Of a DNA stretch of 64,000 bases, positions 6,772 through 8,277 are shown piece after piece; positions within the stretch are counted from its first letter, which is position 1; each line of letters opens with the position of its first letter. A program made the position numbers and the translations under genes. Source of the stretch: Ponticaulis koreensis DSM 19734 (GTDB lineage: Bacteria; Pseudomonadota; Alphaproteobacteria; Caulobacterales; Hyphomonadaceae). Below the pieces are notes generated by a model, which ran no database searches, was not told the DNA's origin, and saw only the letters and a program-made list of their open reading frames with translations. The stretch spans positions 434,001 to 498,000 of the forward strand of contig NZ_ATVJ01000002.1 of assembly GCF_000420665.1 (NCBI RefSeq), read 5' to 3'.

Positions 6772-6840
6772 GTATTTTTCTGCATTTGGATTTTGCTTTT
6801 TCCGCAAATCATCCTACCTTGAGATCTGGTTTTAACAGCA

Positions 6841-6856
6841 GAAAGGAGGTGATCCG
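6841..6856 (+). promoter_or_regulatory. Extended Shine-Dalgarno leader
   Basis: AAAGGAGGTGATCC lies 1 nt before an ATG at 6857. It is the exact complement of the 3' end of 16S rRNA over about 14 bases, far longer than any other ribosome site in this window. The ATG sits so close that either spacing is unusual or the whole element binds the 16S tail for another purpose. Confidence 0.75.
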
Positions 6857-6937
6857 ATGTCTAGTGAGGTCCTGCAGGTGGTGAAAATGCTTGAGTGTGA
6901 GATCAACGTATCGGAGCAGCCTCTGGTACGTGGATAA
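6857..6937 (+). CDS. 26-residue small protein or leader-type ORF
   Basis: An ATG frame of 26 codons, MSSEVLQVVKMLECEINVSE then QPLVRG, ends at TAA 6935-6937. It follows an extended Shine-Dalgarno sequence and ends inside a small hairpin (CGTGG 6929-6933 with CCACG 6941-6945, the stop codon in the loop). A perfect 10-bp terminator stem follows at 6981-7003. The unit is therefore a discrete transcript of about 150-200 nt with one short frame. There is no run of a single amino acid as in attenuation leaders, and no same-strand gene downstream to attenuate. I do not recognise the peptide. It may be a real small protein or a dual-function RNA. Confidence 0.55.
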   Translation: MSSEVLQVVKMLECEINVSEQPLVRG

Positions 6938-6980
6938 ACACCACGTCTTCTGACAAGTATTTGAGGCACCTAGTCTCACG

Positions 6981-7006
6981 AAGGCCACGCTCTGCGTGGC
7001 CTTTTT
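6981..7006 (+). terminator. Rho-independent terminator of the small transcript
   Basis: AAGGCCACGC pairs perfectly with GCGTGGCCTT around a TCT loop, followed by TTT. The T run is only on the plus strand, so it ends the 6857 transcript and not the minus-strand gene that stops at 7021. Confidence 0.9.
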
Positions 7007-7020
7007 GATTCTGGAAAATG

Positions 7021-8277
7021 CTAGTGCTGGCTCAGATAATCGAGCGCGGCATCCATTGGGCCGTCGCGACCGCATTCATCACGCGCGTCTGCAAAATTGA
7101 AATAGCCACGAGGACGGAAGAATTCACGCGGCGTGCCGTCCACGTGGAACAGCTTCTCGGTGGTTAGCTTCACCTTAACGCCGGTTTCTTTGAGCGTGTG
7201 ATCGGTGATGCCGCCCAGAAGGCGCGCCATATCCGTGCCGAATGTTGCTGCGCCAATAGCGTCAAAGCCAACTGTCAGCCCCTCGCCCATGCTCGCCGTC
7301 CAACGACCAGACAGCACAGCCACAGCCGCGTTGAACGTCCAACTACGTGGCTCGACTTCCTCTGACCAGCTACGCTTCACCCCGAAATCGCGTTGATCGC
7401 TCGGCAGCTCATGACGCTGATACATGGTCTGAGCAGAGATAAAGCGGGAGAGAATGCCGCGTGCAACAAGCGCAGTTCCGCCGCTCGCTGTATCGCGCAG
7501 GTCGAGCACAAGTCCGTTCACGTTCGGCAGCGTGTTCAGAGCATAGTCAAAGGCCTGAACCGTCTCGTTATAGCCCAGACTATCATTGAAACGGATGACA
7601 CCATAACGGCGGCCGAGATGAGATACGCTGCTCACGCTGAGAAGGTTCGTATCCCGGCGAAGGCGCGCGTGATAAAGCGTTGGCAGCTCGACCGTCCACT
7701 CAAGACCGTCATGATAGAGGCCAATTCGGCGCAGCCAACCTTTACGCCCCGCCGCCATAACACGCGCGGCATAGCTGCGACGTTCGTCATTCAGCGCATA
7801 CGGATAAAGTCCGATGAAGTCAGCAACGGCCTGATCGACCGGCTTGCCTTCAAGCGACGTGATGACCGCTCCCGGGCGAATCCCAACCTGCATAGCCGGC
7901 GATCCACGGCGGACATCCATGATCTGATAGCCGCCGGCCGTTTTCTCGACCCAGAGATCGGCAAAACTTGGCACAAGCGCATAATCGTCGAGCAGGCCCG
8001 TCGATGTGATGGAATGATGGTCATAAAGCGCGTGGAAGGCGCTCTGACAAAACGCAATCAGATCATTTCGTCCCTGAAGAGACGGGATCAGATGCTGCAA
8101 CTCGGCGCGTACCGGCGTCAACCCGTTGGGGAAACGCTCCGCATAAGCAAACCGGTTTTCGATGAGGTCAAGCAGCTCATAAGCGTCCGTCTGAACGGCA
8201 TGACGATACTGGTAGTCAGCCTGAGACTGCCCCCACCCCGTCATATTGTTCGAAGACACTAATGTCAGGCCACTCAC
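7021..8277 (-). CDS. S41 family peptidase-like protein
   Basis: 418 residues. A central PDZ-like stretch (VRRGSPAMQVGIRPGAVITSLEG) is followed by the S41 tail-specific protease core: YGVIRFNDS, NGLVLDLRDTASGGTALVARGIL and the serine segment SGRWTASMGEGL. S41 enzymes usually use a Ser-Lys dyad or a Ser-His-Ser-Glu tetrad; I cannot place the base with certainty, so activity is probable, not proven. The start is GTG at 8277 with AAGGGA 9 nt upstream. No signal peptide is visible, which is unusual for this mostly periplasmic family. Three TTAA/CTAA half-sites spaced 11 bp apart lie 70-95 nt upstream and may be CtrA boxes. Confidence 0.8.
   Translation of the reverse strand: MSGLTLVSSNNMTGWGQSQADYQYRHAVQTDAYELLDLIENRFAYAERFPNGLTPVRAELQHLIPSLQGRNDLIAFCQSAFHALYDHHSITSTGLLDDYALVPSFADLWVEKTAGGYQIMDVRRGSPAMQVGIRPGAVITSLEGKPVDQAVADFIGLYPYALNDERRSYAARVMAAGRKGWLRRIGLYHDGLEWTVELPTLYHARLRRDTNLLSVSSVSHLGRRYGVIRFNDSLGYNETVQAFDYALNTLPNVNGLVLDLRDTASGGTALVARGILSRFISAQTMYQRHELPSDQRDFGVKRSWSEEVEPRSWTFNAAVAVLSGRWTASMGEGLTVGFDAIGAATFGTDMARLLGGITDHTLKETGVKVKLTTEKLFHVDGTPREFFRPRGYFNFADARDECGRDGPMDAALDYLSQH

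Follow-up and report, generated by a model that had tools for sequence, protein, structure and literature searches.

A divergent relative of the CC2171 sRNA family combines a complement of the 16S rRNA tail with a translated-looking micro-ORF

The element described here, from Ponticaulis koreensis DSM 19734, is best explained as a free-standing gene for a structured RNA, predicted to be about 180 nt long, that carries a micro-ORF of the translated type; the peptide itself is best explained as a by-product. Sequence comparison relates it, as a divergent form, to the CC2171 sRNA family (Rfam RF01867), and selection seems to act on ribosome loading, on a short translated length and on the fold. 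We tentatively read it as a ribosome-capturing RNA whose fold would report the availability of 30S subunits, a mechanism that we infer and to which we give a little less than even odds (about 0.45).

The element lies in a window of 64,000 nt (the whole stretch of DNA that was analysed), and its parts are collected in Table 1. A FemAB-like gene and a HIT gene lie upstream on the same strand, and the downstream neighbour is convergent, an S41-type peptidase gene on the minus strand (7021-8277). The statement of an earlier note on this DNA that no same-strand gene follows, and that the element is not an ordinary attenuator, therefore holds in the window. Transcription is predicted to start at about 6827, from a probable promoter that a consensus promoter scan did not find. 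A search of the 64-kb window for tRNAs, tmRNA and Rfam families above their cut-offs returned none; weak matches to ncS54 and SorY overlap the terminator and were not used.

Table 1. Parts of the element in Ponticaulis koreensis DSM 19734 (window coordinates)
Feature	Position	Strand	Basis
Probable promoter: TTGCTT (6793-6798), 16 nt, TACCTT (6815-6820)	6793-6820	+	by eye
Full-length match to RF01867 (CC2171 sRNA), model positions 1-159	6833-7002	+	
Complement of the whole 16S rRNA 3' tail, AGAAAGGAGGTGATCC; Shine-Dalgarno (SD) of the ORF	6840-6855	+	
26-codon ORF, MSSEVLQVVKMLECEINVSEQPLVRG, stop TAA	6857-6937	+	
Helix P1, 5' strand, GTGAG, codons 3-4	6864-6868	+	Hyphomonadaceae alignment
Helix P2, 5' strand, AAATGCTT	6885-6892	+	alignment, covariation
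Hairpin P3, ending 3 nt 5' of the stop codon; loop CAGC, 6917-6920	6906-6931	+	minimum-energy fold
Helix P2, 3' strand, AAGTATTT	6955-6962	+	alignment, covariation
Helix P1, 3' strand, CTCAC, abutting the terminator on its 5' side	6975-6979	+	
Intrinsic terminator and T run	6980-7006	+	

The 14-mer AAAGGAGGTGATCC (6842-6855) occurs exactly at two places in the 3.4-Mb genome, in the element and antisense to the 3' end of the 16S rRNA. The element and the complement of the genome's own 16S tail have 16 bases in common (AGAAAGGAGGTGATCC), and the remaining matches to the 14-mer within the 64-kb window carry three mismatches each. The full complement of the tail that the earlier note had seen before the ATG is thus exact against the organism's own 16S and unique outside rRNA, and the short frame and strong terminator reported after it are likewise borne out, the ORF beginning one base past the complement and the terminator stem having 11 pairs (6980-7004). 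For comparison, 75.4% of Caulobacter start codons are reported to lack an SD (PMC4117421).

The element recurs widely. When 241 bases were compared with 60 relatives and the genome itself, the best match had E ≤ 0.01 in 41 of 61 genomes (57 of 61 at E up to 1, a tally that includes chance and rRNA matches), and beyond the genus the common core consists of the SD and the first codons. A 21-base signature, with at most one mismatch, was present in 69 of a class-wide sample of 385 genomes, usually once per genome, and the reversed pattern gave no match in the same 385; among genomes of the phylum with a completeness of 90% or more, 71 of 397 had an exact copy, and all 71 are Alphaproteobacteria. 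Such class-wide recurrence argues that the element is not a product of chance. A chance match is ruled out by this recurrence together with the genome-wide uniqueness, and a 16S antisense or rRNA fragment by the fact that the tail complement alone is shared and an ORF then follows.

A scan of the wider collection gave at least 117 loci, nearly all with the micro-ORF arrangement (L152 is a clear exception), with Sphingomonas, Ruegeria, Mesorhizobium, Bradyrhizobium, Methylobacterium, Brevundimonas, Azospirillum and others among the genera in the matches listed. Because the scan accepted only R at the start codon and only TC in codon 2, the set is biased at both codons, and the signature search of the 385 genomes is less so. 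From the 179 loci L001-L179 five were left out (L001, L002, L046 and L047 as duplicates or rRNA, L152 as unrelated), and four failed the strict pattern (L027, L034, L059, L061); 170 remained, or 167 after removal of those identical over their first 120 bases. The named locus L114 encodes a peptide identical to that of L023 and L025 from the window's family, in agreement with an assignment of that family to the Hyphomonadaceae. Genome G072 (L221) has the element twice: a CC2171-like copy carries a GATCG variant, and the other lies elsewhere. On viral contigs, ORFs that by eye resemble integrases or recombinases adjoin the element in L182, L183 and L185, and in L183 and L185 (perhaps also L181) the element lies near the contig end, an arrangement suggestive of an attachment site in the gene. 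The perfect SD of L184 belongs to an unrelated phage ORF.

Several features suggest that the ORF is translated. Start codons across the family are ATG, GTG or TTG, with the first base being A at 44, G at 23, T at three and C at none of the 70 places that match the signature with at most one mismatch. The stop lies at one fixed offset in 22/22 Hyphomonadaceae, 19/19 loci of the Rhodobacteraceae group, 7/7 of the Bradyrhizobium group and 94% of 32 sphingomonads, and TAA, TAG and TGA are all used there within lineages; in the Phyllobacteriaceae-like group the stop is at the modal offset in only half of 14 loci. No second offset, in any frame, is a fixed stop written with different stop codons. 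A stop also recurs at one further offset in 22/22 Hyphomonadaceae and 93% of Phyllobacteriaceae-like loci, there only as TGA, within the conserved AGTGAG. A fixed stop position with varied stop codons, together with the choice of start codons, makes the ORF look translated. Its length ranges from 14 to 36 codons, plus two ORFs of 56 and 59 codons and one cut by a contig end. In L034, L037 and L139 (the last from Azospirillum) the ORF is longer, at 56-59 codons, and by eye its product resembles a secreted protein bearing a signal peptide, which sets these three apart from the rest of the loci seen.

The relation of the element to a known sRNA family had gone unnoticed in the earlier note. The RF01867 match in the window scores 31.5 bits against a gathering score of 75 (E 3.2e-5 for 281 bases), which makes the element a divergent relative of the family and not a certified member; genome-wide it is the best place (E 8.8e-5), the next having E 0.35. 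The family reportedly goes back to a 2008 paper on Caulobacter sRNAs, and its Rfam record types it as an sRNA ('caulobacter sRNA CC2171') and names no ORF. Both have the same order of parts, namely a CAAC-type leader, GAAAGGAGGTGATCC, a start codon, a long-range helix between the first codons and the bases 5' of the terminator, and the terminator; the element differs in that its P1 has five pairs of other sequence and in having its own P2 helix, P3 hairpin and peptide. Among the open-licence papers listed, no title or abstract opening described the element, and the word CC2171 was absent from the 12 papers checked for it.

Loci from Rhizobium, Brevundimonas and Falsiroseomonas score over the RF01867 cut-off, and those from Sphingomonas, the Rhodobacteraceae type, Mesorhizobium, Inquilinus and Bradyrhizobium (E 0.043) under it. 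Over the class, E 0.01 was reached in 63 of 241 genomes, eight of them above the cut-off, and two of 14 control genomes matched, Caulobacter (above the cut-off) and Deinobacterium. Four of 20 further places had no such element (L218, L220, L222, L223), two of these being second places in genomes that have a true element, so the weak matches over the class include chance ones. A further model, R1, was made from 22 loci of the Hyphomonadaceae with the SD left out. Of 69 loci from other lineages, 17 gave a full-length match in place at E below 0.01; five further matches at this level were short and lay at terminators. R1 does not reach the CC2171-like loci L132, L137 and L119, so that the SD, the start region and the order of parts carry most of the link to CC2171. 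Within the Hyphomonadaceae R1 was strong in 26 of 37 genomes (including the 22 source loci) and weak or without a match in 11, several of which keep the SD and start with a divergent body.

The region 6835-7008 folds at -70.5 kcal/mol (z -4.9 against shuffles). P1, GTGAG/CTCAC, pairs in 22/22 Hyphomonadaceae loci, and as its strands are invariant there is no covariation at P1; P2 shows changes on both sides at all eight of its pairs. In the Hyphomonadaceae structure, terminator included, 92.7% of cells are paired and 112 cells are changed on both sides, and 0 of 500 shuffles reached this paired share or these double changes; slid controls were at most 55% paired, a comparison that favours the structure over its slid versions because it came from the same 22-sequence alignment. 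For further pair types, one of the five measures, 72 of 500 shuffles did as well. The counterpart of P1 in the CC2171-like group, CATTGTC/GACAATG, has 87.8% of cells paired (1/500 shuffles) and nine double-change cells (3/500 shuffles), with slid controls at most 53% paired. P1 and P2 connect the ORF start to the bases before the terminator, so that the predicted fold encloses the ORF, and the covariation among the aligned sequences supports such a fold. A hairpin around the stop codon, as the earlier note proposed, can be drawn (CGTGG/CCACG) but is absent from the minimum-energy fold; the better-supported hairpin is P3, just 5' of the stop, whose core in the alignment-derived structure is 6910-6927. 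A program found a terminator in 160 of 167 loci, those of L041, L107, L165 and L168 being weak or doubtful, and contig ends truncate some of the seven loci without one; L041 was also omitted from alignment A2, which holds 34 of 35 chosen loci.

The accessibility of the SD differs between lineages. For 91 loci, at most 14 per group, the cost of opening the SD was no different from that in shuffles (p 0.51). In the Hyphomonadaceae it was 4.1 against 4.9 kcal/mol in shuffles and lower in 12 of 14 sequences, and in two further groups it also fell below shuffles; sphingomonads and the mixed rest were about equal to shuffles or slightly above. The SD was more occluded than in shuffles in the Rhodobacteraceae (7.8 against 4.5) and the Bradyrhizobium group (8.7 against 5.9), and both carry internal anti-SD strands. 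Because the cost varies by group, masking would be lineage-specific and not a common principle, and because the SD is occluded in two groups, a single model of an exposed landing pad does not suit every lineage. An internal anti-SD acting as a universal switch, with GAGCAGCCTCT and ATTGGGTC masking the SD in Hyphomonadaceae, was rejected, as covariation puts them in P3 and P2 respectively and the SD in that family is no more masked than in shuffles.

These data bear on the possibility that the RNA is a trans-acting, base-pairing sRNA, in which the part outside the ORF would pair with target mRNAs, and the SD and ORF would mainly mask the seed or control decay. The cataloguing of RF01867 as an sRNA agrees with this, as do the raised SD-opening cost and the internal anti-SD strands (CCCCACCTCC in some Rhodobacteraceae, TCACCTC in Bradyrhizobium). 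However, no seed common to the lineages was seen in the alignments, where the region after the ORF is the most variable part, and seed pairing alone does not explain the fixed position of the stop codon. We consider this explanation unlikely.

Another explanation is that the perfect SD drives high synthesis of a functional micro-peptide that evolves fast between families, much as the earlier note suggested. It draws on the conserved start and stop and on the Hyphomonadaceae, where most loci have MSSE and EQP and the in-frame pN/pS of 0.62 compares with 0.92 and 1.02 in the other frames. Peptides of separate lineages, however, are unrelated past the first residues, and some differ even there (MKDCHQ, MHHEVL); lengths vary; and EQPL falls on hairpin P3, with L020 reading the GAGCAGCCTCT motif in a different frame. 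Pfam and NCBIfam searches with four peptides, MSSEVLQVVKMLECEINVSEQPLVRG among them, found no family. Comparing silent and replacement changes in six groups (105 of 167 loci; only pairs of modal length and at least 70% identity) gave a mixed result: a weak purifying signal in the Hyphomonadaceae and none in the other five groups, with in-frame pN/pS of 0.95, 1.33, 1.25 (from four pairs only), 1.60 and 1.03; off-frame values span 0.42 to 1.96. Since RNA pairing also curbs silent changes and so lowers pS, these ratios are no proof that amino-acid selection is absent. On balance a small protein made at high level is disfavoured, and we judge it decidedly unlikely.

The tail complement is nearly invariant among relatives. 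Over the 70 places with at most one mismatch, mismatches number 13 in the GATCC part, two in the AAAGGAGGTG part and two at the leading G, and six of the 13 in GATCC are A to G, where wobble pairing is still possible. RNase R attack on the 30S subunit starts at the 3' end of 16S rRNA. The RNA might protect the tail or compete for it, covering the anti-SD of idle 30S subunits and so sparing them exonuclease attack or blocking initiation in dormancy; the complement does span the whole tail, beyond the needs of initiation, and degradation of 30S subunits by RNase R is a pathway described in PMC10901742. Against this, the RNA would need an abundance comparable to that of free 30S, and a decoy requires neither a fixed stop codon nor P2, and we hold this role to be very improbable.

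The neighbourhood of the element suggests a link to ribosome rescue. In many Rhodobacteraceae-type loci, unlike the window, arfB follows directly downstream of the element in the same orientation: it starts 16-128 nt past the terminator in 12 of 20 such loci (L063-L177) and about 900 nt past it in three more. In 12 of 23 Hyphomonadaceae loci arfB is divergent and upstream, and in L061, from another family, an ArfB-type ORF is divergent 85 nt upstream; NCBIfam confirmed the identity of two of these proteins as ArfB. No arfB motif was found in the window or in the scanned loci of other groups, many of which reach only 1.5 kb on each side. About 40-60 nt 5' of the SD in several Rhodobacteraceae-type loci (e.g. 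L071, L077, L063) there is a TTGACA-like box followed by the inverted repeat CACAAAATCTGTG, possibly a regulator site. By eye, some Rhodobacteraceae arfB genes look leaderless. We give almost no credence to an ancestral arfB leader or attenuator that became free-standing in the genus of the window, which these positions of arfB would favour, as orientation and distance vary between groups, arfB is missing from the window and the scanned loci of other groups, inspection by eye suggests a separate promoter for some Rhodobacteraceae arfB genes, and the terminator overlaps neither P1 nor P2, leaving no evident antiterminator.

We thus return to the reading of the element as a ribosome-capturing RNA. 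Of the alternatives raised in the earlier note, titration or sensing of free 30S subunits by an RNA agrees better with the data than a small protein does, given a tail complement that hardly varies, an ORF with the behaviour of a translated one and a fold around it; sensing itself is the inferred part. In our proposal a 30S subunit would dock on the perfect tail complement, and pairing along its full length, including the GATCC that abuts the start codon, would be more than initiation calls for and should keep the subunit in standby. For the start codon to reach the P site, this pairing would have to unzip in part and P1 would have to open. The RNA would then exist in a ribosome-loaded state, with P1 and P2 open, and a ribosome-free, closed state, and the loaded fraction would report 30S availability or initiation capacity. 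Output would probably be in trans, through RNA stability or through exposure of the strands freed from P1 and P2.

In favour of this reading we count the tail complement, the recurrence over the class, the start and stop data, amino acids unconserved in most groups, the fold, the matches of R1 and an SD slightly more open than shuffles in the Hyphomonadaceae. Against it we count the occlusion of the SD in two groups, the Hyphomonadaceae pN/pS, the scatter of stops in the Phyllobacteriaceae-like group, the limited reach of R1 (26/37), a structure tested on its own alignment and the variation of GATCC, which is looser than the core and weakens, though it does not remove, the argument for standby on the full tail. 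As a free-standing sensor the proposal is incomplete. A broader form of it, a class-wide gauge of free 30S in the shape of an independent RNA that is most constant where it mirrors the entire 16S tail, and in which occupancy of a micro-ORF indifferent to its peptide holds a conserved fold open, with a historical link to arfB, seems to us rather unlikely.

Small RNAs with some of these properties have been described. Sinorhizobium meliloti, which has dual-function small RNAs, makes rnTrpL/peTrpL, also a small independent transcript with a micro-ORF of similar length; as reported, rnTrpL is leaderless and its peptide functional, whereas the element has an extreme SD and a peptide unconserved across lineages (PMC10117765). 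From the same source, SEP1 of S. meliloti (23 aa, highest TE) was considered, and its pI of 4.18 does not suggest a match. In Staphylococcus aureus, extended SD sites and STAR-motif ORFs likewise bring ribosomes to small ORFs by longer-than-core pairing, but the extension reported there from cryo-EM is two extra pairs, in many mRNAs, and the element has the entire tail complement in one RNA gene (PMC13009471). The Caulobacter sRNAs SisA-D and their sponge CrfA, which binds SisA with the help of Hfq, are alphaproteobacterial small RNAs also built on SD/anti-SD pairing; SisA is described as carrying the anti-SD strand and targeting mRNAs, whereas the RNA described here has the SD strand and is directed at the ribosome (PMC12559287). 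Nothing found in the accessible part of PMC5082802 equates BjsR1 or BjsR3 of Bradyrhizobium with the element.

In summary, the CC2171 sRNA family appears to be spread over many Alphaproteobacteria, to be translated-looking and to be built around a perfect complement of the ribosome's anti-SD. If the gauge reading is true, the RNA would measure ribosome availability directly, and not by way of amino acids, nucleotides or a nascent peptide, and if the element reads ribosome availability, free-ribosome sensing by bacteria would become directly testable in Caulobacter. If there is no such sensing, the element would still be a clear case of an ORF that seems to be selected for its translation and not for its product.
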